Source: a virus. Taken from it: 64,000 bases of DNA. The position numbers were made by a program, and so were the translations under genes. Shown here one piece after another: positions 33,937-47,329 of this stretch. The first letter of the stretch is position 1. Each line of letters starts with the position of its first letter. The stretch covers positions 62,001 to 126,000 of the IMG/VR virus record IMGVR_UViG_3300033182_000769; one strand, written 5' to 3'. Below the pieces are notes generated by a model. It saw only the letters and a program-made list of their open reading frames with translations. It was not told the origin of the DNA and did no database searches.

Positions 33937-34743
33937 ATGGGACGATTAGTAAAAACATCATTATCTGGCAACGAAATTACTATTGACGTTATTAATAACC
34001 AGTTTGTAAACGCAACTGTTGACGAAGATTTGGTTTTTGATGTTGTTGGTACCGGTAAAGTTTCAATGCCAGACACAACTGCTTCAACAAGTACAACAAC
34101 AGGTGCTTTAGTAATTGGCGGCGGCTTGGGTATGGGTGGAAACCACCACGTAGGTGGAAGTACCGTAATTGCTGGCTCTGCTACAGTTAACAGTACAACA
34201 AACTCAACAAACACGTCAAGCGGTGCCATAATCGTTACAGGCGGTGTAGGTGTTGGAGGTAATGGACACTTTGGCGGTTCAATAACCAGTGTAGGAATTA
34301 CATCTTCGGGTGCAGTAACTATTTCAAACGGTACTGCTGCGTCGAATTATACTTCGGGCGCATTGGTAGTTACAGGCGGTATTGGATGTAATAATAACTT
34401 ATATGTAAACGGTGTAGGTCGTTTTTCAAATGACGTTGTTGCACACTATTCATCAGACGAAAGGCTTAAAGAAAACATTAACCCTATCGAAGATGCGCTA
34501 AATAAGATTGATGCAATTAGCGGTGTAACGTTTGACTGGAACGAAACAGCATTAGAAATGTACCCAGAAAGAACAGGACGCGATGTCGGTGTTATTGCTC
34601 AACAAATTCAAAGTGTTGTACCTGAATTAGTTGTTGAGAGAGAAAACGGATACTTGGCCGTTAATTACGAAAAAATCACTGCTTTATTAATTCAAGGCAT
34701 CAAAGAGTTAAAAGCAGAAATTGAAGAACTTAAAAAAGGTTAA
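33937..34743 (+). CDS. Tail fibre with C-terminal S74 intramolecular chaperone
   Basis: This 268-residue protein has an N-terminal two-thirds of glycine/serine/threonine beta repeats (GALVIGGGLGMGGN, GAIIVTGGVGVGGN, GALVVTGGIGCNNN), typical of a trimeric shaft. The C-terminal 100 residues form a peptidase S74 autoprocessing chaperone with the signature SDERLKENI. Ser173 and Lys178 have the spacing of the catalytic Ser and Lys of phage endosialidase chaperones, so self-cleavage just before Ser173 is expected, releasing the DVGVIAQQIQ/coiled-coil part. It is located directly before three adhesin-like genes, so it may be the distal shaft that carries them. Confidence 0.85.
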   Translation: MGRLVKTSLSGNEITIDVINNQFVNATVDEDLVFDVVGTGKVSMPDTTASTSTTTGALVIGGGLGMGGNHHVGGSTVIAGSATVNSTTNSTNTSSGAIIVTGGVGVGGNGHFGGSITSVGITSSGAVTISNGTAASNYTSGALVVTGGIGCNNNLYVNGVGRFSNDVVAHYSSDERLKENINPIEDALNKIDAISGVTFDWNETALEMYPERTGRDVGVIAQQIQSVVPELVVERENGYLAVNYEKITALLIQGIKELKAEIEELKKG

Positions 34744-34749
34744 TTAAAG

Positions 34750-35421
34750 ATGGCATTTACGTTAACTTCTACAGGAATAACTTTCCATAACGGAACCACA
34801 CAGTCAACAAAATTTGACAGCGATGACGATAGAGGAAAGTTAATTAGCGTTAGTACATTTGGCGGTGGCTCTTCAGGTGGCGGATCATACACTTGGAATA
34901 AGCCGGCAGGATGTACTAAAGTGCGTGTTATCTGCGTAGGAGGTGGCGGTGGCGCTTCGGGACACTGCGAAGGCGGTGGCTCCGGCGGTTATGCAGAGAA
35001 ATGGGTCGATGTTTCCGGTGTTAGCTCAGTATCAGTAACAGTAGGTGGCGGTGGTTCTGGAGGTGGTTACCACTCTAATAGACCAGATGGTGGCACAAGT
35101 TCATTTGGTGGCTACTGCTCAGCATCAGGCGGATACGGAGCAAATCGTAACTGGAGACATTCAGGCGGACATGGCGGCATTGGACACGGCGGTGATATTA
35201 ACCTAAGAGGCGGTGGCGGTGGCGGCCACGAAAACGAAGCGGGCGGCAAGTCTGCAGATAGTTATTGGGGAGGAGGCGGCCCTGCTACACACCATAACTA
35301 TCACGGTAACAATTCAGAAAACCATTGCGCACCTGGCGCTGGCGGACAAGGTACTTGGACAGGCCACGGTCGTGGAAGATACGGTAAAGCGGGAATGGTT
35401 GTAGTTTGGAATTTCAAGTAA
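34750..35421 (+). CDS. Glycine-rich adhesin-like fibre tip, copy 1
   Basis: This 223-residue protein has an N-terminal SSGIxFPDGTTQ-type attachment motif (here STGITFHNGTTQ), a YTWNKPAGCTKVRVICVGGG strand, then a long Gly/His/Asn/Ser-rich region (about 70-205) built of GGxGG runs, closing with a MVVVWNF strand. Long polyglycine runs with an aromatic end recall the polyglycine-II sandwich of gp38-type distal adhesins of T4-like enterophages, which bind receptors. That relation is by composition and context, not by alignment. It is the first of three tandem paralogues. Confidence 0.6.
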   Translation: MAFTLTSTGITFHNGTTQSTKFDSDDDRGKLISVSTFGGGSSGGGSYTWNKPAGCTKVRVICVGGGGGASGHCEGGGSGGYAEKWVDVSGVSSVSVTVGGGGSGGGYHSNRPDGGTSSFGGYCSASGGYGANRNWRHSGGHGGIGHGGDINLRGGGGGGHENEAGGKSADSYWGGGGPATHHNYHGNNSENHCAPGAGGQGTWTGHGRGRYGKAGMVVVWNFK

Positions 35422-35440: not shown

Positions 35441-36112
35441 ATGGCAGAAATTACTATTAATAGTTCAGGCATAGTAATGCCAGATGGCAACACACAAACA
35501 ACTGCTATGAATGCCTCTCTTGATAGAGGTAAGTTAATTAGTGTAAACACATATACAGGCAACAGCACCTGGAATAGGCCATCTAATTGTAAAAAGATTT
35601 TGGTTATTTGTGTAGGTGGTGGCGGCGGTGGCTGCGGACACAATGAATCGGGCGGCGCCGGCGGCTATGTAGAAAAGTTATTAGATGTTTCATCTGGACC
35701 TACATCAGTATCAGTAACAATTGGCGGCGGCGGAGATGGCCGTACATATCACAGAGGTTGTGGTGATGGCGGACAAACATCATTTGGTAGTTATTGTTAC
35801 GCTACAGGCGGACGTGGAGCAAATCGTGACTGGAGCCACACAGGCGGACGTGGCGGACACGGCGGAAACGGTAATGTAAATTTATGGGGTGGCGGTGGCC
35901 GCTCACATGGAGACCAAGGTCAAGACGACGGTGGACAATCATTCTTTGGTGGTTCTCAAGTTGCAGGACACCACGGCGGTTATTACTACAGACACTGGTC
36001 AGAAGGACTTAATCACAATCCACCAGGATCAGGCGGAAACGGCGAATGGTCTCAACACTCACGTGGCGGGTATGGTACCAGTGGTATTTGTATCGTATAT
36101 AACTATTCATAA
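35441..36112 (+). CDS. Glycine-rich adhesin-like fibre tip, copy 2
   Basis: This 223-residue paralogue of its two neighbours is built from NSSGIVMPDGNTQ, then STWNRPSNCKKILVICVGGG, a Gly/His-rich region with GGDGRTYHRGCGDGGQTSFG, and ends in ICIVYNYS. The ends and the GANRDWSHTGG block are conserved while the loops between glycine runs differ, the pattern expected of receptor-facing loops. The ATG is preceded only by a weak AGGTAAAAC. Confidence 0.6.
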   Translation: MAEITINSSGIVMPDGNTQTTAMNASLDRGKLISVNTYTGNSTWNRPSNCKKILVICVGGGGGGCGHNESGGAGGYVEKLLDVSSGPTSVSVTIGGGGDGRTYHRGCGDGGQTSFGSYCYATGGRGANRDWSHTGGRGGHGGNGNVNLWGGGGRSHGDQGQDDGGQSFFGGSQVAGHHGGYYYRHWSEGLNHNPPGSGGNGEWSQHSRGGYGTSGICIVYNYS

Positions 36113-36125
36113 GGACGAGCGATAA

Positions 36126-36815
36126 ATGGCAACTACATTAAACAGTAACGGAATTAATTTTCCAGATGGCACTACACAAACCGTAAAGTTCCAAGAAGAA
36201 GATGGCGGTGGTGAATTAATTGCTATCAATACTTTTCCACCACATAATGACTTCCACAACGTAACACGTTCTGGAACATATACTTGGACTAAACCGTCTG
36301 GCTGTAAATATGTTAGAGTAATTGTAGTCGGAGGCGGTGGTGGCTCGTGCGCACACGGAGAGTCGGGTGCTGCTGGCGGCATGGCTGAAAAGTTTATTAA
36401 TGTTGAAGGTATTAGCTCAGTATCAGTAACAGTAGGCGGACGTGGGTCGGGCGGCGGCTACTATTCAAATAGACCAGACGGTGGCACAAGCTCGTTTGGT
36501 AGTTATTGTTCGGCAGGCGGCGGCTATGGTGCAAACCGTAACTGGGGCCACTCAGGCGGTCACGGCGGTGTAGGTCACGGCGGAGACATTAATGTTTGGG
36601 GCGGCGGCGGCAATGGCCACGATAACCGTGGCGGCAAAGGTGGCGGCTCATACTTTGGCGGATCAAAATTCCCAGGGTGGGGTAACAACTCACGTGGCGC
36701 TACTGGCGAAGATCACTATATGGCTCCGGGTGCAGGCGGTTCAAGTTGTCACTCAAGCCACGGTAGAGGTGGTTACGGCGCAACTGGAGCAGTAATTGTT
36801 TACTGCTATAAGTAG
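36126..36815 (+). CDS. Glycine-rich adhesin-like fibre tip, copy 3
   Basis: This 229-residue protein is closer to copy 1 than to copy 2 in the middle (SNRPDGGTSSFG, GANRNWGHSGGHGG and VGHGGDIN shared), with a small insertion after residue 40 (FPPHNDFHNVTRSG). It ends VIVYCYK. A GGACGAGCG ribosome site precedes it. It is the last gene of the adhesion block before the enzymatic island. Confidence 0.6.
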   Translation: MATTLNSNGINFPDGTTQTVKFQEEDGGGELIAINTFPPHNDFHNVTRSGTYTWTKPSGCKYVRVIVVGGGGGSCAHGESGAAGGMAEKFINVEGISSVSVTVGGRGSGGGYYSNRPDGGTSSFGSYCSAGGGYGANRNWGHSGGHGGVGHGGDINVWGGGGNGHDNRGGKGGGSYFGGSKFPGWGNNSRGATGEDHYMAPGAGGSSCHSSHGRGGYGATGAVIVYCYK

Positions 36816-36887: not shown

Positions 36888-38522
36888 ATGCAAATTAACA
36901 GTGTTCTTATTGTCGGTGGCGGAAGTAGCGGATGGATGACTGCTGCTGCGTTAGTTAGACAACTTCCACAATTAAAAATAACATTAGTAGAAGCACCAGG
37001 AATTCCAACAATCGGTGTAGGCGAATCTACCATTGGACATATTAACAGTTATATGAATGCAGTTGGTCTCAAAGACGAAGATTGGATGAAGAACTGTAAT
37101 GCAACATATAAGACATCAATTAAATTTACGAATTTTAGAGATAATCCAGGAGAGATTGGAAAACATACCTTCCACTATCCGTTTGGGGTTATAGATATCA
37201 CTGACAAAGATGAAGGCCCAATGGAGTGGTTCTTACACAATCAAATAGATCCAGATAACTGGCCAGAAGAAACAATGGCAGAGTATTATCACCCTCACGT
37301 TATTATGGCTGATCATAATAAAATGACTAATAACGACGAGTTTCAGATAAGAGGATTTAATTTCCAATATGATACGGCATATCATATGGATGCTGCATTG
37401 TTTGGGGAATATTTAAAGAATGATGTGTGTATTCCAGAAGGCGTAACACATATTGTAGATACTGTATTAGATGCAGAAGTAGCAGAAGATGGTTCACTTG
37501 CAAATATTGTTACAGAAAATAATGGAAAGTTAACCGCAGATTTGTACATTGACTGTACTGGTTTTAAATCTATACTACTTGAAGGAAAAATGAAATCTGA
37601 ATTTGTTTCTTTCAAAGATACATTGTTAAATGACAGAGCTATTGCTACTATTATCCCGTATCTTGATAGAGAAAATGAAATGACTTCTGCTACTAATTGT
37701 ACAGCAATTGATGCAGGTTGGGTATGGAATATCCCATTATGGAATCGTATCGGAACTGGTTATGTATATTCGAGTGACTTTGCGACAGAAGAAGAAGCAG
37801 AAGAACAATTTAGAAAACACTTAGCCGGTGAATATATGGACTTCCAAGGCGATAAAGAAGCACTTAAAAAACGTGCAGAGGAAGCAGAATTTAGACATAT
37901 TAAGATCAAACACGGCTGTCATAGAGAAGCATGGGTTAAAAATGTAGTTGGTATTGGTTTAGCCAATGGATTTATTGAACCGCTTGAGTCGACAGGACTT
38001 ATGCTAACGCACGAAGGTATTATGAGATTAATTGATACCTTGCATAATAGAAAATGTTTTGTTACCGGCTATGATAGAGAAGCATTTAACTTTGCAGTAT
38101 TTGACGAAGTTATTGGTTTTAAAGATTTCATTTCAATGCACTATACATTAACAAGACGTAACGATACACCGTACTGGAAACATATCACAGAGGGAGGCAT
38201 TAAATGGTCTCCGGAAATGGCAAATAGTATTCCAAAATTACGTAATATTTACATGGATGTTGCTGGTAGGACTTTAAATTCGAGAGTTTACGATCTTGAT
38301 ATGGGAGGAATGCTTTATATCGTCGCAGGTCAGGGTTACAAACCAATGAATGATCGGTATATGAAAGACAAAAATGATAGGTATAATAGACGCAAGCAGT
38401 GGAAACAGGAAGAGTCAGCACACTTATGGTTCGATTACAAAGAAAACGTTTTAATGCCAATGATTGATAGTTTACCAACCCATTATGAGTATTTGAAGAT
38501 AAATATTCATACAGAAGAGTAA
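36888..38522 (+). CDS. Flavin-dependent tryptophan halogenase homologue
   Basis: This 544-residue protein has all hallmarks of PrnA-type halogenases: the FAD-binding GGGSSG (11-16), GVGESTI (43-49), the catalytic lysine Lys75 in YKTSIKF, the W-x-W-x-I-P motif (WVWNIP) that blocks monooxygenation, and EPLESTG holding the catalytic Glu. The length equals PrnA (about 538). Family members chlorinate or brominate tryptophan, free or in a larger substrate, with reduced FAD from a partner reductase, which is not seen here. The gene sits between fibre genes and an oxygenase array, so a protein or small-molecule substrate are both open. The key residues are intact, suggesting an active enzyme. Confidence 0.88.
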   Translation: MQINSVLIVGGGSSGWMTAAALVRQLPQLKITLVEAPGIPTIGVGESTIGHINSYMNAVGLKDEDWMKNCNATYKTSIKFTNFRDNPGEIGKHTFHYPFGVIDITDKDEGPMEWFLHNQIDPDNWPEETMAEYYHPHVIMADHNKMTNNDEFQIRGFNFQYDTAYHMDAALFGEYLKNDVCIPEGVTHIVDTVLDAEVAEDGSLANIVTENNGKLTADLYIDCTGFKSILLEGKMKSEFVSFKDTLLNDRAIATIIPYLDRENEMTSATNCTAIDAGWVWNIPLWNRIGTGYVYSSDFATEEEAEEQFRKHLAGEYMDFQGDKEALKKRAEEAEFRHIKIKHGCHREAWVKNVVGIGLANGFIEPLESTGLMLTHEGIMRLIDTLHNRKCFVTGYDREAFNFAVFDEVIGFKDFISMHYTLTRRNDTPYWKHITEGGIKWSPEMANSIPKLRNIYMDVAGRTLNSRVYDLDMGGMLYIVAGQGYKPMNDRYMKDKNDRYNRRKQWKQEESAHLWFDYKENVLMPMIDSLPTHYEYLKINIHTEE

Positions 38523-38535
38523 TAAGGAGTAATTA

Positions 38536-39051
38536 ATGGCAAAATATGCATTAGTACACAATTTTATGGAAACTCGTGTTCAGGCAGTTGCAACAACCGA
38601 GGCAGAAAAATTTGACATCCACTCAGATTTAAGTTGGATCCCTTGCAGTGATGACGTTGAGCAAGGATGGGAATATAATAAAGAAACTGGAACCTTCCAA
38701 CCTTGGCAGGATCCTCCAACACACTACACAGTAGCACGTAGGGTAGGCTATGGTGATGTAGGCGCACAATTAGGTGAAATTTTTGACGCAATACAGTCAG
38801 GTAATGCAAACGCATTAACATCGTGGGCTTCAAGAATTGAAAAGATTAAAATTTTATTACCTAAAGACAACGAAGCAGCAGTGATTGCAGTTCAAAATGA
38901 ATTAAATCAGCGTAACCAAACAATGGCTGATAAGGCAGAAGCAGGTGAAATTGATTTTCAAGATGCGCCTGATGTTGTCACTCAGTTAGCAGATGAATAT
39001 ATTAATGGTACTTGGATTTGTCCTGTAAGAGGTCAGTATACCGGTTCCTAA
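38536..39051 (+). CDS. Fibre-associated protein with YxxARRVGYGDVGAQLGEI motif
   Basis: This 171-residue protein has an N-terminal domain that ends in WEYNKETGTFQPW, a form common at phage fibre tips. The central VARRVGYGDVGAQLGEI motif recalls the 'YPxIGDQLD' module in many tail proteins, and the C-terminal half is helical with a final GTWICPVRGQY. It follows the halogenase by 13 nt with AAGGAG and ends at a strong terminator, so the two may be co-expressed. It could be a fibre tip, a fibre assembly factor or the halogenase's target. Confidence 0.5.
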   Translation: MAKYALVHNFMETRVQAVATTEAEKFDIHSDLSWIPCSDDVEQGWEYNKETGTFQPWQDPPTHYTVARRVGYGDVGAQLGEIFDAIQSGNANALTSWASRIEKIKILLPKDNEAAVIAVQNELNQRNQTMADKAEAGEIDFQDAPDVVTQLADEYINGTWICPVRGQYTGS

Positions 39052-39131: not shown

Positions 39132-40421
39132 ATGAACGACTTTGATAAGTTATTTTCTTTTGGTTATCCATCATTTACTGAAGATCCTAACTTTTATTAT
39201 AACTGTTTAAAAAATTCGCATCCTCGTTTTAGAGAAGAAATTTTTGACATTTACTTTTCTGCTCCTTTTAAATATACATGGAACGGAGTAGATCGTCAAT
39301 ACGGTGATGTAATGGGTGCTCCTTTAAGTGATGCACACATTGAATCGTTACTAAAAATACAAAAAGAATTTGGGATTGAAGTTAGTTTAACATTTAACGA
39401 GACCTATCCTAATAGAGAACTGGTTGAAGATCTTAATATCATGAATCAGTTTGTGGATCATATTGGTAAGTATTACGACATGGGTGTTCGTTCTTGTACC
39501 ATTAGCCATGTTCATATGATGGCAACAAGTGTACTACAACGCAATTTTCCTGAAATGAGATGGAAAAATACTGTTAATCATATTATTACAAAGCCCCAGC
39601 AAGTTGTAGATTATCATACTATTGGCTACGATGTTATTAATCTTGATAGATCGTTGAATCGTGATATGGATATGCTTAATGCTATGCAACCGTTACGAAA
39701 AAAATATCCTAACTTAATTCTTTCGCTACTTGTTACAGAAGGTTGTATGCCTACTTGTCCATTTAAAGTAGAACATGATACAATGAATAAAGAAGTAGGA
39801 TGGAACTACTTTGCTAATCACGGTAACATGACTTGTAAACAATGGAGGCATTCTGTAATTAACGATCTTCCAAGAGTTGGAACTGAAATGATTTGGGGTG
39901 ACTTAGACACTTTTATGGAATACAGAGAAAAAGTTGATTACTTCAAGTTCTCCGGAAGAATGATGAATCTCCCATCTAACTCTACAGATCAAAAAATGTG
40001 TTGGACGAATACAACAGACATTAAAGGCCAACGTTGGAATACTGATTACGCAGATGCTAATGTTCCTATAGAACAAGGCAATACTGTTCTTGTTGCAAAT
40101 TATTTTGAAGAAATTATTAACAACAATCCGGGAGTTATTTCTAACTTTAGTCCTATACGATTTGTTGATAAGGATACACCGTCAAATTTGGAACTTGCTC
40201 CAGACGTTGACAGCAGATCTATATGGACAACAAAGAAAGGAAAATCTCTTAATTTAGTGTTAAAGAATTGTAAAAACGAGTGTTGGGATTGCCATGCCTG
40301 CGAACGTACTTTTAGCTCTGAGTTAGGTGATATTGATACACTTATTGAAGTAAACAGAGATACTGAAATTCTAAGAGGCCATGCTCAACATTTCCAAGGA
40401 ATTAAAATTAATCAGATTTAA
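39132..40421 (+). CDS. Putative Fe-S TIM-barrel protein, U32/UbiU-like
   Basis: This 429-residue protein has a barrel-like alternation of strands and helices. A TEGCMPTCPFKVEH motif (Cys205, Cys209, His215) is close in form to the cysteine signature of peptidase-U32/UbiU/RlhA proteins, followed by Cys235. A C-terminal cluster CKNECWDCHAC adds more cysteines. U32 relatives bind a [4Fe-4S] cluster and hydroxylate RNA or quinones with prephenate as oxygen-chain partner. It has the ATG in GGTATTTAAATG context after a terminator, and its end overlaps the converging oxygenase gene by 14 nt. Family placement is tentative; a radical-SAM-like or novel Fe-S enzyme is an alternative. Confidence 0.45.
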   Translation: MNDFDKLFSFGYPSFTEDPNFYYNCLKNSHPRFREEIFDIYFSAPFKYTWNGVDRQYGDVMGAPLSDAHIESLLKIQKEFGIEVSLTFNETYPNRELVEDLNIMNQFVDHIGKYYDMGVRSCTISHVHMMATSVLQRNFPEMRWKNTVNHIITKPQQVVDYHTIGYDVINLDRSLNRDMDMLNAMQPLRKKYPNLILSLLVTEGCMPTCPFKVEHDTMNKEVGWNYFANHGNMTCKQWRHSVINDLPRVGTEMIWGDLDTFMEYREKVDYFKFSGRMMNLPSNSTDQKMCWTNTTDIKGQRWNTDYADANVPIEQGNTVLVANYFEEIINNNPGVISNFSPIRFVDKDTPSNLELAPDVDSRSIWTTKKGKSLNLVLKNCKNECWDCHACERTFSSELGDIDTLIEVNRDTEILRGHAQHFQGIKINQI

Positions 40422-41037
40422 TATTTCTTTGCCAGTTTATATTTAAATTGTATCTGGCTTTTTGTTTACAAGGTCTGGAACCTGAATGGTAATATTCTCC
40501 AGGGAATACTAATAATCTATTACGTTTAGGAGGTATAGTTGTTAGTAGTTCGCACTTATTTTTATTTTCTTTATAATATTCCAATGCTTCGTCAGTAGTC
40601 TTTCCAATAGGGCATTTCATATCATATATGTATGTAGGGCCGTCGCTATCATTAAGATACAGTATAGCAGTTGTTGACGCCATGTCTGGTGTATCGACGT
40701 GCGGTTCGAACGGGTCTGAATTAATTGATGTTGTATTTAAATTGGCTTTAAATCGAATTAACTCGTCCATCTTGGTGCCAATTGTATACTCGCAGTGCAA
40801 CAAAAACGGAACAAACTCGTCATAATTTGGACAGGTAAACTTTGGCTCTGCATCTTCTACGTGTCTATAATAAATTAAAGACGAAAACCCTTCGTCCCAC
40901 AATGCTAAATCATCAGAGTACTTTGATCTGTATGTAGTGTCTTTTAAAAAAAACCACGGATAACTATCATCGAGCACCACAGAAGAAACTTGATCAAGTA
41001 TAATTTTAGGTAAAAAGTCGTCTATAATTTTAATCAT
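40408..41037 (-). CDS. 2-oxoglutarate/Fe(II) oxygenase, array member 8
   Basis: This protein has 209 residues from the ATG at 41037, chosen because it overlaps the stop of the preceding gene as ATGA. It is a double-stranded beta-helix oxygenase: HVD iron ligands at 113 and 115, distal His184 in YYHSGSRP, and 2-oxoglutarate-binding Arg195. Between them lies the YLNDSDG turn shared across the array. It is the last gene of an eight-gene operon, ending inside the 3' end of the converging gene at 40421. The substrate is unknown; a protein prolyl or lysyl hydroxylase is possible. Confidence 0.85.
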   Translation of the reverse strand: MIKIIDDFLPKIILDQVSSVVLDDSYPWFFLKDTTYRSKYSDDLALWDEGFSSLIYYRHVEDAEPKFTCPNYDEFVPFLLHCEYTIGTKMDELIRFKANLNTTSINSDPFEPHVDTPDMASTTAILYLNDSDGPTYIYDMKCPIGKTTDEALEYYKENKNKCELLTTIPPKRNRLLVFPGEYYHSGSRPCKQKARYNLNINWQRNIKSD

Positions 41038-41624
41038 TTTATTATTGCTGCCCATGTCGCTATTACGTATTTGTCATTTGAAAGTGGAGAGTTTCCTCTA
41101 TGTGTATGTGTAAACTCTGCAGGAAACATTAATAATCTTCCTTTCTTTGCTGCTACACGTCTTGGATAATAATGGAATTCTGTTTCACCGCCTTCGTCTA
41201 CATCATTAAGATAAAGTATGAATGCTAAAAAACGATTACTATGTTCAATGTCTCCACGCTCGTGGTGCCATACATGATAGCCGCCTCCGACTGGTGTTTT
41301 TTGCAATCTATATGAATATATTCCATAATTGTGTGCGTGTAATATATCGTATTCATTAAAATATAAATTAACGCAATCAACAACTGCACGGTTAACCTCA
41401 CCTAAAATTCGGCTGTTCATTAACTGTATGCTATCGTCCATTTCATCTTGAAAGAAGTAAGTATCATCTTTTTTCTTAAGACGCTCTACTCCTTCTAACT
41501 CTTGTCTGGAACTTGTTAATGTTGATGCTTTTACGTAATCAAAATGTTTAACAACATCATCACAGAAATCAAGAGGAACTGCATCGTCAAATACACCAAT
41601 AAAATCTTTTATATCTACTTTCAT
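41034..41624 (-). CDS. 2-oxoglutarate/Fe(II) oxygenase, prolyl-4-hydroxylase-like, array member 7
   Basis: This 196-residue protein belongs to a different subfamily from most of the array. Its metal site reads WHHERGD, with HxE (120, 122) instead of HxD. It has the P4H-like LYLNDVDEGGETEF strand, distal histidine within THTHRGNSP (His173/His175) and a late basic residue (Lys185) for 2-oxoglutarate. HxE sites are known in some 2OG enzymes and usually remain functional. It starts 8 nt after the preceding gene and overlaps the next by 4 nt. Confidence 0.8.
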   Translation of the reverse strand: MKVDIKDFIGVFDDAVPLDFCDDVVKHFDYVKASTLTSSRQELEGVERLKKKDDTYFFQDEMDDSIQLMNSRILGEVNRAVVDCVNLYFNEYDILHAHNYGIYSYRLQKTPVGGGYHVWHHERGDIEHSNRFLAFILYLNDVDEGGETEFHYYPRRVAAKKGRLLMFPAEFTHTHRGNSPLSNDKYVIATWAAIIK

Positions 41625-41632
41625 ATTAATAC

Positions 41633-42250
41633 TTACACAAAATTGATGTTCATAATGTATCGTCTTGGATGGAACATAGGGTTGCTTGGTGCGTGAAACC
41701 GAAGCCCGTTAAATGCAACCATTCTACCTAACTTTGGCGTAACACGCTGTTCTACCTTTACATCATACTCAAACTGTTCGGAATTCCAAATCTTATCGAA
41801 TAAAAATGTATCCCCATCACTATCATTGAGATAGTAAATTATTGTTTTATGTTCTTCAAAATTGTCAACATGAATTTCGTTGCAGCAGTTATCGTGCCAT
41901 CCTGGCAAATGATTCTTGGTTTGATTATTAACTTTGACACGCATTACTGCTTCGACTGTATCGCCTGACAATCGTTGATATTCGTCTAATACTGACAACG
42001 CTAATTGATAAAATGTATCATCAAAAATTTTAGATTCTTTAAAATTATTATAGTATACTAATTTAATTAATGAGTCTGATGGGACCTGCACGGTATCTAA
42101 CGGATTAACAGTTAACCCTTTAAAGTATGCCCCAGACGTTGCAACATGATTATAATCAACCCATCCAAAGTTTCCACCTTTTGTATACTCTGAAAACCGT
42201 TGCTCTGTTTGCTTAGGTAAAATGTTATCGTAAATTTGTGTTTCAATCAT
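41633..42250 (-). CDS. 2-oxoglutarate/Fe(II) oxygenase, array member 6
   Basis: This 205-residue protein has iron ligands HVD at 127 and 129, distal His186 in RFHAPS, and Arg196 or Arg197 for 2-oxoglutarate. It has the IIYYLNDSDGDTFLF core shared with other members and a small Cys pair before the metal site (NCCNE). It overlaps the degenerate member upstream by 8 nt (ATGATTGA), indicating coupled translation. Confidence 0.85.
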   Translation of the reverse strand: MIETQIYDNILPKQTEQRFSEYTKGGNFGWVDYNHVATSGAYFKGLTVNPLDTVQVPSDSLIKLVYYNNFKESKIFDDTFYQLALSVLDEYQRLSGDTVEAVMRVKVNNQTKNHLPGWHDNCCNEIHVDNFEEHKTIIYYLNDSDGDTFLFDKIWNSEQFEYDVKVEQRVTPKLGRMVAFNGLRFHAPSNPMFHPRRYIMNINFV

Positions 42251-42725
42251 GGAATTTAAACTCTACTGTTAGTGTTTTAAAAGACTGTACAGGATTTGTG
42301 ATAGCATACAGTCTGTTATCTACATGAATTATAGATCCTTTTTTAGTTTTTATTCTTTCAACTTCGTTGCAACAGTCGTCAAAGAAAATTACTTCACTAT
42401 CATTATCATTAATGATATACAATACTCCATTTAATTTAGTTGGCCGGTTACAGTTAACACTTGTAATATTTGGATTTTGATATTGTAATTTAAATTTTAC
42501 ATTTTGTAATTCAAAAGGACCGATCTCAGTTTTATCCATAACATTATCTAATATATGCCAAACCCATGCAGCAAATATTTGGTCATCTTTGTCAAAAGTT
42601 AATTCATTAACAAACTCAACACTAACTTCTCCTTTAGTGTAGACCCATTTAAATTCTCTCCCGTTTACAGTGTTTTCTAAACGATCCTGTGAGTACGGAT
42701 TAATAATGCTATTAAAAATTTTCAT
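42243..42725 (-). CDS. Degenerate 2OG-oxygenase paralogue lacking metal ligands, array member 5
   Basis: This 160-residue protein is about 40-50 shorter than its neighbours. It keeps the frame of the fold (IINPYS start, VLYIINDNDSEVIFFDD core, KKGSIIHVDNRLYAITNP end), but the iron site is Asn91-Cys92-Asn93 where H-x-D belongs. The distal His is replaced in the LYA segment, and the late Arg is absent. It is an intact ORF with start and stop overlaps to both neighbours, so it is maintained. A pseudoenzyme, binding partner or scaffold is the likely role. Confidence 0.65.
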   Translation of the reverse strand: MKIFNSIINPYSQDRLENTVNGREFKWVYTKGEVSVEFVNELTFDKDDQIFAAWVWHILDNVMDKTEIGPFELQNVKFKLQYQNPNITSVNCNRPTKLNGVLYIINDNDSEVIFFDDCCNEVERIKTKKGSIIHVDNRLYAITNPVQSFKTLTVEFKFHD

Positions 42726-43330
42726 ACTATATTGATATTCAAAATTATACGTTTGTCGTTTTCTTTAGGACTTTGAGAAGTGTGAAAGTGTAGTCCGTCA
42801 AACAGTACAATTCTGCCTTTCTTTGGTTTAATTCGTTGTTTAATAGTTAAAGGTACCGGCTGCTCAGCATCTTCGCTCCAACGCTCATTAAAAATAACGG
42901 TATCACCGTCTGAATCGTTTACATAATACACCATTACTAAATGTTCATTATACACATCGAGGTGCGGATAATGAATAGCATTATCGTGTGTTGCTCCAGA
43001 TGCAGGATTAGGTGTCAGCATATTTGCTTTAACTCTAATAATACCGTGTAAATCTATATTTTCTTCCTCACAAACATAATCTATAATCATTCGAGACATC
43101 ATGTATGCATCATGAGGATCGTACCATAAACTGTCCATAAACAACGGCTTTGTCATTCCTGACGACTCTATATGTTTATAATTGTCTGGAAATGTGAATT
43201 CGTTTTTAGGTGTTTGTGTACCTAATGATAAATTATCCATTGCAAACCAATAGAAGTTATCAGAAGTTAATCTTTCTTCTAATCTGTCCACTAATGCAGG
43301 AGGTAGTAAATTATCAAAGACCTTAATCAT
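42722..43330 (-). CDS. 2-oxoglutarate/Fe(II) oxygenase, array member 4
   Basis: This 202-residue protein has an HLD metal pair at 123 and 125, distal His183 in HFHTSQSP, and Arg194 in KRIILNINI. It shares MVYYVNDSDGDTVIF with the array. The start overlaps the preceding stop as TAATG. All residues needed for catalysis are visible. Confidence 0.85.
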   Translation of the reverse strand: MIKVFDNLLPPALVDRLEERLTSDNFYWFAMDNLSLGTQTPKNEFTFPDNYKHIESSGMTKPLFMDSLWYDPHDAYMMSRMIIDYVCEEENIDLHGIIRVKANMLTPNPASGATHDNAIHYPHLDVYNEHLVMVYYVNDSDGDTVIFNERWSEDAEQPVPLTIKQRIKPKKGRIVLFDGLHFHTSQSPKENDKRIILNINIV

Positions 43331-43968
43331 TAATCATCCCATTCTATAGCAAACGAAACAGAAATACGATCTTCTTCGCTGGTTTTATTTACACCAATTT
43401 CGTGATCCATCCAACCCGGCCAAATTAATAAGTCTCCTTCTCCTGGAGCAAATGTATACGACGATAGTAACAGACTCTTTGAAGATTCTGTTTGATTTAG
43501 GTAGTACGCAAATTGATTTGGGTCAGTGAATGTTATATTTCCTGAATATTTAGGCACTGAAATATAATATGTTCCGGCTAATAAATCCGGAGCATGGTGG
43601 TGTCTGCCTTGAAAACCACCAGGAGGATTAATATTAAACCACATTGTTCTTAATCTAATATTACTATGTGAACGGGTCCACGGAGCATTGAGCTCTCTCA
43701 TCTTTTCTATAATATTATTAACATACTCTGTTGATCTTTCTAAAATTAAGTCTTTAAGATGTTTAAAAACATCAACTTCAAATAACTGAGATGTAAAGTC
43801 ATCATAAAAATAAGTTGTAAAGCCAGTATTATAAAAGTTTCCTTGTCCTTTTACCGGAGATTCATTGTAGATGGATTTAATCCAAGTTAGTATCTCATCG
43901 TGGTTAGAAACTTTACTTTCTGTATCCAACAGTATTTTTGGAGAAAACGGTGTAAAATATTCTTTCAT
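43330..43968 (-). CDS. 2-oxoglutarate/Fe(II) oxygenase, TIGR02466-like, array member 3
   Basis: This 212-residue protein is of a subfamily distinct from its neighbours. It has NINPPGGFQGRHHHAPDLLA (113-132) with histidines 123-125, then GTYYISVP and NITFTDP strands, LLIWPGWMDHEIG with distal His189, and Arg201 in RISVSFAI. This order is that of putative 2OG-Fe(II) oxygenases grouped as TIGR02466 and common in marine phages. It starts 1 nt after the stop of the previous gene. Confidence 0.8.
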   Translation of the reverse strand: MKEYFTPFSPKILLDTESKVSNHDEILTWIKSIYNESPVKGQGNFYNTGFTTYFYDDFTSQLFEVDVFKHLKDLILERSTEYVNNIIEKMRELNAPWTRSHSNIRLRTMWFNINPPGGFQGRHHHAPDLLAGTYYISVPKYSGNITFTDPNQFAYYLNQTESSKSLLLSSYTFAPGEGDLLIWPGWMDHEIGVNKTSEEDRISVSFAIEWDD

Positions 43969-43969
43969 G

Positions 43970-44560
43970 TTATAATCTTCCTACTGATTCCTTTGTTATT
44001 AAATCTACATTTAATATAGTTCTAACGCCGTTAGTTGGCCGACTGCTACTATGATAGTGTTTTCCATTAAAAATTACACATCTTCCTTTTTTAGGTTTGA
44101 TTGTTTTTTTAATTGTATAATTATCTGATTTTTCTGTTTCGTTATAAATGATAGTATCTCCGTCAGTATCTGTTAGATAATATAAAACAACAGTGTGTCC
44201 AATAGGCAAATCTACGTGAGGATTGTTAACTCTATCATCGTCACTTCCTCTAACTGGAAACTGCAAAAATGCTCGCATCCGTAACATTGTTTCAACTTCG
44301 TCGTCAATATGTTCTAATGCTCTGTACACTATTGGTAAGATATTAAAAAAATCAGGGTGTACACTATCAGGCTTATTTTGTCTATCAAAAATTAACTTAG
44401 CGAACCCGTAGTGATTAACTCTTTTTTCACTTTCCTGTCCGTCGTCAAATGTAATATCTTTTTGAAAATACCATTCGGTATCTCCTCTCATAAAATACCA
44501 AGTAATAAAATCTTGATGCTGCTTAGGTAATAAATCGTCAATAATTACAATATCATCCAT
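43970..44560 (-). CDS. 2-oxoglutarate/Fe(II) oxygenase, array member 2
   Basis: The ATG at 44560 overlaps the previous stop by 8 nt (ATGGATGA); the GTG at 44572 is a less likely start. The 196-residue protein has HVD at 115 and 117, distal His170 in KHYHSSSRP and Arg180 in VRTILNVDL. It has the VVLYYLTDTDGDTIIYNE core. A complete active site is visible. Confidence 0.85.
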   Translation of the reverse strand: MDDIVIIDDLLPKQHQDFITWYFMRGDTEWYFQKDITFDDGQESEKRVNHYGFAKLIFDRQNKPDSVHPDFFNILPIVYRALEHIDDEVETMLRMRAFLQFPVRGSDDDRVNNPHVDLPIGHTVVLYYLTDTDGDTIIYNETEKSDNYTIKKTIKPKKGRCVIFNGKHYHSSSRPTNGVRTILNVDLITKESVGRL

Positions 44561-45152
44561 CGACAAATTCACCTAAAAGATTAAAATTGATAATACATCG
44601 TAACCCATCTTGTGGCTGCTCTGCTGTATGATAAACATCTCCATCAAACACTACACATTTATTTTTTTGTGGAGTAACTCGGATCATTTCTTCAAAATCT
44701 TCAGCCTCTAAATCAAACCGTGCTTCGCCTTCTCTTATATGATCAACTAAAATAGTATCACCGTCCGAGTCCATTACGTAATATAACACAACTAAATGTG
44801 TGTATGGTTGATCTGTGTGTAACGCATCAACTTTGGTATTTGTAAAGTTTTCGTGTAATGGCATCTGTAAAAAAGACCGTGCTTTTTGAATATTATGGTA
44901 TTTGTAATTTATCTTCTTACAGGCCTCATCAATAATAGGTCTTACTAACTCTAAAAAATCGTCATCATTTTTGTTCCACTCGGTATTCACAAAAACGTGC
45001 CCGACTGCCGGTGTGGCTCTTTCATTAGACCCTGTTCCGTAAGTAATGTCCGTGATCAAGTGCCATGGCGCATTATGGAGTAAAACGTCCTCGATTTCAT
45101 CGGCAACGTTTTGATCCAGCAAGTTTTCAATAATCGTTGGTTTTATAATCAT
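44553..45152 (-). CDS. 2-oxoglutarate/Fe(II) oxygenase, array member 1
   Basis: The start at ATG 45152 is chosen because the longer frame to 45191 runs through the promoter. The 199-residue protein has HTD at 112 and 114, distal His175 in VYHTAEQP and Arg185 in LRCIINFNL. It has the LYYVMDSDGDTILVD core. It is the first gene of the operon, about 20 nt after the predicted transcription start. Confidence 0.85.
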   Translation of the reverse strand: MIIKPTIIENLLDQNVADEIEDVLLHNAPWHLITDITYGTGSNERATPAVGHVFVNTEWNKNDDDFLELVRPIIDEACKKINYKYHNIQKARSFLQMPLHENFTNTKVDALHTDQPYTHLVVLYYVMDSDGDTILVDHIREGEARFDLEAEDFEEMIRVTPQKNKCVVFDGDVYHTAEQPQDGLRCIINFNLLGEFVDG

Positions 45153-45185: not shown

Positions 45186-45213
45186 GAGCATTTTTGCAGG
45201 TCTAAGAAATATT

Positions 45214-45221
45214 GATAAATA
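45214..45221 (+). promoter_or_regulatory. Late promoter GATAAATA
   Basis: It lies 26 nt before the ATG at 45248 of the cupredoxin-bearing fibre. A TTG at 45212 that would extend that frame overlaps this motif. Confidence 0.6.
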
Positions 45222-45247
45222 TAAAAAAGAATTTAGGATTTAAATCT

Positions 45248-47329
45248 ATGGCACTTCCACAGACGTTAACAAATTTACGAATTATCCCAAGAGAGGGTAG
45301 TTTTCTTGATCGAAAAGTAGGATCACGAGGCGAGATTTTTTACGATCAAGATACAAATACATTAAGACTTTACGATAGCATTGTTAAAGGCGGATTTCCT
45401 ATTGTTACGAAATCAAACCTTATTAGAGATCTTGAAAGTGAGAACGTTGCTAACGTAAAATATACTGTAGTAATTGTTAACAATGGTGAAGGAAACAAAT
45501 ATGTTCTTAATAACGAATATTGGCCAGAATTAACATTTGTTGTAGGCTATACTTACACATTTATTCAAGACAATCCTACAAACGTTTATTATCCTAATCC
45601 TAATGGAACTACTAATAATCAACATCCTTTAAACTTTAGTGCTGACCAGTTAAATGGTGAATTAGAGGATGGTACAAGTTATCTTGACGGAGTTACATAT
45701 AGATTAGACGGACTTGAAGTAACACAAGCGGATTATTTTAACGGGTTTGAAATTGCAACACAAAGAAGCGTAAGTATTCATGTTACATCATCAACTCCTA
45801 CTACTCTTTATTACTGGTGTCAAAAGCACCTAAATATGGGTCGGCCTATTACTGTTTCAAATCCCGGAACAGGCGGCGGTGTATTGGATTATAACGAACT
45901 TGAAAACTTACCTACGTTGTTTGATGGAGATTATAACAGTTTAACTAATCTGCCTTCTATTCCAACAAGTATTTTAAACCTTGGAATTAGTGACGGAAGT
46001 AACAATCAAGTATTAACAACAAACGGAAACGGTGTATTTACATTTAAAACCGTAGCCGGTGGCGGTGGTGGTGATATCACTGTTGTTTCAGACGATGGCC
46101 AATTTACTATATCTGGCGGGACAATGACTGTTGTCGGTGGCACAAACATCGACACTGAAGTCGTAACAGGAAGCGGACAATTAACAATTAATCTAACTCC
46201 GTTTGGAATAAACTACTTAACTGATGTTGACACTTCAACAACAGCCCCCGAAGCAGGGCAAGTATTAAAATGGGATGGTGCCAAGTGGGCTCCTGCTACT
46301 GATGCTACTGAAGGCGGTGCAGGTCTCGATGCTCAATTCTTAAACGGTCAGCCGGGCCCATATTATTTAAATTATAATAATTTAACAAATACTCCTTCTA
46401 CATTAACACTTGCAAATTTAAGTGTTGGCAATGAACGTGCAGCAGCAGGCGACGGCGGCATTGAGTACGACAACACAACAGGCGTATTTCGATACACTCC
46501 GCCGGATCTGACAAGTTTTGTAACATCGGGCGAATTAGCGCCAGTTGCTTATACTGGGGACTATGCTAATATATCTAACACTCCTACATACGCAACAGTA
46601 GCAACATCGGGTGCTTACGGTGACTTATCCGGCACTCCTACAATTCCAAGTGCGTTAACTGATTTGGGCATTACTGACGGTACTAACGGTCAAGTATTAA
46701 CAACTAATGGTGCTGGCGGATTTACATTTACAAGTGTATCATCCGGAGGAAACGCATTTACTACTATTAGCATTTCGGGTGCCGACAGCATTTTAGCAGA
46801 TTCAAGTTCAGACACACTAACATTTGCAGCAGGAAGCGGAATTACATTAAGTACTGATGCTAATAACGACACTATTACTATTTCAAGTTCGTCTACCGGC
46901 GCTTCAAACTTTAGTGGGTTGAGTGATGTTACAACAGCAAACACAACTATTGATAAAGTTTACCTACCGGCAATTACACAATTAGTTGTTGTAAACAATG
47001 GTGCTACATCTTATAGATTTGATCAATACGGGTCCGCTAACAATCCGTCAATTTATGCTCTAAGTGGAACTACTATTGCGTTTGATATTGACGGCATTGG
47101 AGCACACCCATTCTTAATTCAAGATGCAATGGGTACTAATTACGATACTGGATTGGTACACGTTACTTCAAACGGTAATGTATCTACTGCGTCAAATGCT
47201 CAAGGTAAAACATCCGGCACGTTGTATTGGAAGATTCCGGGTGATGTATCGGGAACATACAGATACCAGTGTTCACTGCATCCGGCAATGGTTGGATCTA
47301 TTTACGTTAAGAACTTTGGATCTATTTAA
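45248..47329 (+). CDS. Tail fibre with two cupredoxin-like domains
   Basis: The ATG at 45248 starts MALPQTLTNLRIIPREGSF; the earlier TTG at 45212 is upstream of the expected transcript start. The 693-residue protein has an N-terminal attachment region, then a cupredoxin-like domain with ligands in type-1 copper order, His126, Cys191, His194 and Met197 (WCQKHLNMG). Fibre repeats follow (NLGISDGSNNQVLTTNGNG and LGITDGTNGQVLTTNGAGG). A second domain at the C-terminus has His620, Cys675, His678 and Met681 (CSLHPAM). It is probably a fibre. Copper binding is inferred from ligand spacing; the folds could be metal-free. Confidence 0.65.
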   Translation: MALPQTLTNLRIIPREGSFLDRKVGSRGEIFYDQDTNTLRLYDSIVKGGFPIVTKSNLIRDLESENVANVKYTVVIVNNGEGNKYVLNNEYWPELTFVVGYTYTFIQDNPTNVYYPNPNGTTNNQHPLNFSADQLNGELEDGTSYLDGVTYRLDGLEVTQADYFNGFEIATQRSVSIHVTSSTPTTLYYWCQKHLNMGRPITVSNPGTGGGVLDYNELENLPTLFDGDYNSLTNLPSIPTSILNLGISDGSNNQVLTTNGNGVFTFKTVAGGGGGDITVVSDDGQFTISGGTMTVVGGTNIDTEVVTGSGQLTINLTPFGINYLTDVDTSTTAPEAGQVLKWDGAKWAPATDATEGGAGLDAQFLNGQPGPYYLNYNNLTNTPSTLTLANLSVGNERAAAGDGGIEYDNTTGVFRYTPPDLTSFVTSGELAPVAYTGDYANISNTPTYATVATSGAYGDLSGTPTIPSALTDLGITDGTNGQVLTTNGAGGFTFTSVSSGGNAFTTISISGADSILADSSSDTLTFAAGSGITLSTDANNDTITISSSSTGASNFSGLSDVTTANTTIDKVYLPAITQLVVVNNGATSYRFDQYGSANNPSIYALSGTTIAFDIDGIGAHPFLIQDAMGTNYDTGLVHVTSNGNVSTASNAQGKTSGTLYWKIPGDVSGTYRYQCSLHPAMVGSIYVKNFGSI

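Follow-up and report, generated by a model that had tools for sequence, protein, structure and literature searches.

A tandem array of eight 2-oxoglutarate/Fe(II) oxygenase-family genes linked to Gly_rich_2 fibre and VirX1-type halogenase genes in a T4-like phage

2-Oxoglutarate (2OG)/Fe(II) oxygenases rank with the commonest "auxiliary metabolic genes" of marine phages, and a role in host metabolism is the usual explanation. Cyanophages can carry many of them, with 10 2OG genes published in 2023 for S-CREM1 (PMC9964418) and 24 for S-SCSM1 (PMC9602691). In S-CREM1, nine genes in succession with a 2OG or JmjC annotation (SCREM1_72-80, 7/9 with a Pfam match) follow genes for a Gly_rich_2 fibre, a small protein and a VirX1-type halogenase (with collagen-like protein 67 and halogenase 69), and in Syn9 (gp38-gp54) Gly_rich_2 fibres, the small protein phrog_1787 (gp40) and halogenases precede a 2OG/cupin run in which 8/9 products (gp45-gp53) have at least a weak Pfam match. 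Here the analysis was centred on a similar arrangement in virus record IMGVR_UViG_3300033182_000769 (160,009 bases), positions 62001-126000 of which form the window, a stretch of 64,000 nucleotides numbered from its first base. Eight consecutive overlapping minus-strand open reading frames (ORFs), running from 45152 down to 40408 and numbered w1 to w8 by ascending coordinate, form an array of 2OG-type genes beside tail-fibre and halogenase genes.

The window phage is marine and T4-like, and its gp23, the major capsid protein, is 69-73% identical to those of the jumbo T4-like phages Phosso, Vibrio 2.275.O and CBB/GAP32; this protein was nearest to Phosso, Vibrio 2.275.O and GAP32-type jumbo phages and not to cyanophages. 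S-CREM1, by contrast, is a cyanophage, its run lies on the fibre strand and includes a JmjC_2 member and a DUF6445, and no phrog_1458, the family of a Cys-rich protein next to the array, was seen at the corresponding position. Syn9 differs in having two halogenases (gp41/gp42), phrog_7084 in place of phrog_1458 and another set of 2OG subfamilies. Since these cultured cyanophages carry runs of comparable size (about nine genes), an eight-gene array as such is neither new nor unprecedented, and the view of a preliminary description of the window that cyanophages have "single or few" 2OG oxygenases is out of date. Viral relatives were gathered by scans with w7 and w2, an earlier scan with w5 alone having given no matches. 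About 200 viral loci were compared, some of them on overlapping contigs; runs of eight 2OG genes occurred only in the window and in the IMG/VR contigs G003 (3300043410_000871) and G002 (3300047560_001299), all others having at most five, as counted with 2OG profiles that miss JmjC- and DUF6445-type members. What appears to be unreported in the searchable literature is the conserved eight-gene set in a non-cyanophage capsid lineage, its dead paralogue and the fibre-halogenase-2OG linkage.

All eight array genes belong to the 2OG/Fe(II) oxygenase superfamily, seven of them placed there by Pfam, PHROG or NCBIfam, and at least three subfamilies are represented. The phrog_274-type comprises w1 (40408..41055, also PF13640), w3 (41633..42250), w5 (42722..43330), w7 (43970..44572) and w8 (44553..45152, the first gene of the array), while w2 (41034..41624) is P4H-like (PF13640, phrog_61) and w6 (43330..43968) is of the TIGR02466/PF13759 type, with a TIGR02466 score above the curated cut-off. 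In the Pfam search w1, w2, w3 and w5 passed the PF13640 cut-off; w7 and w8 fell under it but matched phrog_274 at 1e-30 or better. For w4 (42243..42725), a search of Pfam gave no match, and a phrog_274 match at 5e-7 was the only convincing profile match. AlphaFold models of w5 (pLDDT 91.3) and w4 (pLDDT 83.8) both showed a double-stranded beta-helix, with 2OG oxygenases in the PDB as the best Foldseek matches, the other members being assigned by profile only. The preliminary description had proposed one fold for all eight genes, overlapping junctions and at least three subfamilies; profiles, models and ORF junctions agree with this and place the products inside the double-stranded beta-helix oxygenases.

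It had also stated that seven genes keep HxD/E...H with a distal basic residue. This holds for six (w1, PHVD...YH...R; w2, HHE...H...K; w3, IHVD...FH...R; w5, PHLD...FH...R; w7 and w8), each with a distal R or K, since w6 has HxH...H...R and all of H, D, H and R are missing from w4. Residues H123, D125, H183 and R194 (w5 numbering) were invariant in 25 phrog_274-type sequences, as was HxE/D in 84/84 P4H-type relatives of w2. The HxH...H that replaces HxD/E...H in w6 was likewise invariant, in 34/34 TIGR02466-type members from the examined loci, so that in this abundant PF13759-type phage family the metal site or the chemistry may differ from that of ordinary 2OG hydroxylases. Seven array genes apparently encode working oxygenases and one a dead paralogue.

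That paralogue, w4, is predicted to be catalytically dead and is the fastest-changing gene of the array. Its orthologues in two further loci (L015 and L013) keep H, D, H and R, and the G003 counterpart (g4) is intact. A decayed pseudogene is disfavoured by the 160 codons that remain open, by a pN of 0.45 against a pS of 0.75 (at saturated synonymous divergence) and by the kept junction overlaps. Because non-synonymous change lies below synonymous change in every array gene, w4 included, the product of w4 gives the impression of a pseudoenzyme that has been kept, and not of debris.

The array is old. G002 and G003, whose array proteins are identical to each other, carry the eight-gene set in the identical order, and seven window genes are 50-68% identical to their G003 orthologues (w1 58%, w2 68%, w3 57%), with w4 at 34%, while paralogues inside the window are only about 20-33% identical over their length. 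Each phrog_274-type window gene paired with its G003 orthologue in the tree (support 0.96-1.0), the w4 clade also including one long-branched S-CREM1 gene; paralogues scattered among genes of other phages, except that w3, w4 and w5 grouped together, the deep nodes being weak. A recent tandem duplication as the origin of the array is rejected because the genes are 1:1 with their G003 orthologues and most paralogues scatter in the tree, which strengthens the initial view that more than one recent duplication was involved. Synonymous sites were saturated for most array genes, and the lower non-synonymous change in each indicates purifying selection. The neighbourhood is shared as well: fibres are 68-78% identical to those of G003, the halogenase 70% and the Cys-rich protein 72%, and the small protein is also present, whereas the long fibre differs (30-38%). 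Unlike the window, G003 and G002 have an additional Gly-rich fibre and lack a connector gene upstream of the array.

Junctions within the array range from -22 to +8 nt, with ATGA, TAATG and 8-nt overlaps among them. The longest ORF of w7 has a GTG start and that of w8 can be extended to an ATG at 45191; the starts at ATG 45152 (w8) and ATG 44560 (w7) agreed better with the orthologues in G003 than those of the longest ORFs did. A single upstream late promoter had been proposed for the array. No exact TATAAATA was found upstream of it, the nearest site being TATCAATA at 45217-45210 (-), and one-mismatch sites occurred at chance level (141 found vs 137.6 expected), so this proposal is unsupported. 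Exact ATAAATA cores lie on the plus strand in 14/15 cases in the window, none before the array, and many are directly upstream of gene starts, as T4-type late promoters would be. A fibre/baseplate connector-like gene (phrog_677, 45212-47329) separates the array from the minus-strand genes upstream.

The tail-fibre setting, flavin halogenase and Cys-rich protein noted at the outset were all found beside the array, on the plus strand. A Peptidase_S74 (endosialidase-type chaperone) fibre protein (33937..34743) lies directly upstream of a cassette that begins with three Gly_rich_2 (PF21722) fibre tip proteins, A (34750..35421), B (35441..36112) and C (36126..36815), followed by a flavin-dependent halogenase (36888..38522), the small protein of phrog_1787 (38536..39051) and the Cys-rich protein of phrog_1458 (39132..40421), which is convergent with the array with a 14-nt tail overlap. 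The nearest solved structure to the halogenase was VirX1 of cyanophage Syn10 (6qgm), a full-length match (E 1e-142, residues 2-541 aligned, 480 bits, against 279 bits for the next-best solved halogenase). VirX1 has a large open active site, a broad aromatic scope and activity on non-native aromatics, and the review that describes it gives neither a biosynthetic cluster nor a native substrate (PMC8407142).

The same genes were found together in other phages. A VirX1-type halogenase lay less than 2 kb from a Gly_rich_2 fibre in 14/15 records (0.9 expected under random placement), with the G003 fibre, which the profile search missed, placed from our own annotation, and less than 2.5 kb from a 2OG gene in 12/15 records (3.3 expected). 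For other phage halogenases the corresponding counts were 0/9 and 5/9. The naive probabilities of 2e-17 (fibre) and 2e-6 (2OG) serve for ranking only, because they treat related phages as independent and the records were picked for halogenase or 2OG matches. A second survey, anchored on phrog_1458 and so avoiding choice by halogenase, covered 39 non-redundant loci; among the 26 that extended 4 kb or more to either side, a fibre was present within 3 kb in 23, a halogenase in 22, the small protein in 21 and a 2OG gene in 13. The commonest form of the cassette had one or more fibres, the small protein, the Cys-rich protein, often one 2OG gene, and the halogenase, a five-gene cassette being legible in locus L131. 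Across loci the parts recur as Gly_rich_2 fibres, phrog_1787, a VirX1-type halogenase, phrog_1458 and 2OG oxygenases numbering from one to about ten, and the window, judged by its genes, has an enlarged form of this common cassette. Ten cultured cyanophages (S-CREM1, Sf-FP1, P-TIM40, Syn9, S-RIM44, S-SZBM1, Sf-FR1, Sf-CH11, P-RSM6 and S-WAM1) likewise had their VirX1-type halogenase flanked by, or next to, small fibre genes and 2OG genes.

Gly_rich_2 fibres linked to such cassettes (n=48) were compared with unlinked ones (n=11, from seven phages), using the numbering of window fibre B. In linked fibres position 67 was a ring residue in 48/48 cases, with E69 in 45, E78 in 47, Y103 in 44, and N128, H133 and H156 in 47 each, all of them uncommon in unlinked fibres (0-4/11 in the counts shown). 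W44 was conserved in linked and unlinked fibres alike and is probably structural. The near-invariant ring, Asn and His residues (positions 67, 103, 128, 133 and 156) are the first candidate modification sites.

The recurrence of VirX1-type halogenases, 2OG genes and one Gly_rich_2 subfamily across unrelated capsids favours the fibre as the target of these enzymes, and about an even chance is given to the array being the hydroxylase part of a cassette that hydroxylates and halogenates the Gly_rich_2 fibre tip. This reading is also favoured by the joint conservation of fibres and enzymes between window and G003, by the residues typical of linked fibres, by peptidyl hydroxylases among the solved neighbours of w5 and by the open, broad-scope active site of VirX1. 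Fibre-tip polypeptides would be synthesised late in infection and, before or during folding of the tip, separate array members would hydroxylate separate side chains of its glycine-rich loops, while the halogenase would halogenate a ring residue. Receptor-contacting residues would thereby be chemically changed, which would affect how the tip binds, how stable it is or how well it withstands decay. The length of the array would then reflect one recognition site per enzyme, w4 being a former member whose own reaction was lost. The preliminary description had suggested a modification system acting in an ordered manner on fibre residues, host metabolites or cell-surface molecules; cassette recurrence favours the fibre among these targets, host metabolites and surface molecules are less favoured, and ordered hydroxylation was not supported.

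Several observations weigh against fibre-tip modification. S-B64 carries a VirX1-type halogenase in its replication region, cassettes without a nearby 2OG gene exist (L049/L050 and 13/26 phrog_1458 loci), the nearest 2OG gene in L047 is 9 kb off, and in many phages 2OG genes lie far from fibres, so that not all of them fit a fibre role. Adjacency in phage genomes also arises by shared late expression, and the residues shared by linked fibres may be structural or reflect ancestry, as these fibres are relatives of one another. A search of the open-access literature found no reports of a modified fibre peptide. The modelled fold does not tell whether the substrate is a peptide or a small molecule: the nearest solved folds to w5 included the peptidyl hydroxylases PHD2, the P4H solved with EF-Tu (4iw3) and the PBCV-1 collagen hydroxylase, and the top match was PolD, which acts on a small molecule. 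Fold alone is undecisive because both proteins and small molecules are substrates of P4H-type enzymes.

The PolD match also bears on a small-molecule pathway, in which halogenase and oxygenases would make or tailor a halogenated, hydroxylated metabolite, for instance an antibiotic-like one, with the late-region siting due to chance or timing. A halogenase combined with 2OG enzymes is a typical feature of natural-product clusters, and chlorination of free tryptophan (PrnA, pyrrolnitrin) is a published guess for cyanophage halogenases. The window halogenase, however, is VirX1-like and not PrnA-like, the annotated neighbours (ORFs of at least 60 aa) included no recognisable scaffold-forming enzyme or precursor peptide, and the genes that stay linked are those for fibres and not biosynthetic ones, which leaves this pathway unlikely. 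Host molecules modified during infection (a surface glycan, a lipid, an outer-membrane protein, a ribosomal protein or EF-Tu) would suit the EF-Tu-bound P4H among the fold matches, and several cyanophage 2OG genes adjoin sugar-epimerase and methyltransferase genes; such targets are also unlikely, as the neighbours of the array are fibre genes and its relatives accompany one fibre subfamily across different capsid lineages.

A role in auxiliary metabolism, in which consumption of 2-oxoglutarate resets host nitrogen/carbon signalling (NtcA), was put forward for cyanophages by Sullivan et al. 2010 (PMC3037559). It is improbable here, since uncoupled turnover would not require eight enzymes of ancient divergence whose order and 1:1 correspondence have been preserved, and the capsid of the window phage is not that of a cyanophage. 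Modification or repair of DNA or RNA (AlkB-like or by base hydroxylation) is suggested by the PHROG label of phrog_274, "DNA endonuclease V" or "DNA repair", and by a guess also cited in the literature. Pfam, ligand residues and fold do not fit that label for the array genes and identify 2OG oxygenases: searches of w1-w8 gave 2OG matches, with no Pfam match to a nuclease or glycosylase, S-CREM1 encodes its pyrimidine-dimer glycosylase in a gene of its own (SCREM1_91), and no nucleic-acid-modification partner was noted beside the array, so that this function is very improbable. The label itself is a misnomer spread over many cyanophage records, including genes named denV.

More broadly, many T4-like marine phages may carry a dedicated tip-tailoring system that combines multi-site 2OG hydroxylation with VirX1-type halogenation of the Gly_rich_2 subfamily, a generalisation we put forward tentatively and somewhat below even chances. 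If true, viral halogenases would gain a natural substrate and fibres a post-translational modification of a kind for which no report was found. Were a large share of 2OG and VirX1 enzymes to serve the fibre tip, two questions would have one testable answer and the "metabolic" genes counted in marine viruses would have to be revised; the prediction of fibre modification can be tested in the cultured phages Syn9, S-CREM1 and S-RIM44. The enzymes are of known families; a confirmed fibre hypothesis would make the array a new kind of system.

In Pam3, a glycine-rich receptor-binding tip (gp24) goes with a small two-domain chaperone (gp25) (PMC9608196). The window fibre and phrog_1787 resemble this pair by architecture only, the PDB search having given no sequence match, and phrog_1787, a family that includes Syn9 gp40, stays a mere candidate fibre chaperone by size and position. 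The Cys-rich protein has an invariant CxxxCxxCxxC-type tail, and Pfam and PDB searches with it gave no match. As a U32/UbiV-like hydroxylase it reached 0.5% probability in hhalign against E. coli UbiV, a weak test with a single-sequence template, and this assignment was dropped. Relatives of it also occur in two contigs of proteobacterial metagenome-assembled genomes (L221 and L222), without fibre, halogenase or 2OG neighbours. The uncharacterised family phrog_7084 (Syn9 gp43, at 8577-9365 of L061, and L026, 4962-5762) recurs between halogenase and 2OG genes. FlmC-type 2OG matches, the best at 9e-6 and far under the cut-off, are a lead only, and a literature search on FlmC as an oxygenase found nothing. 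A search for tRNAs as a clue to the host found none. Five more 2OG-type genes lie outside the array (at 1793, 127420, 145448, 147490 and 155858 in record coordinates), which brings the 160-kb record to 13.

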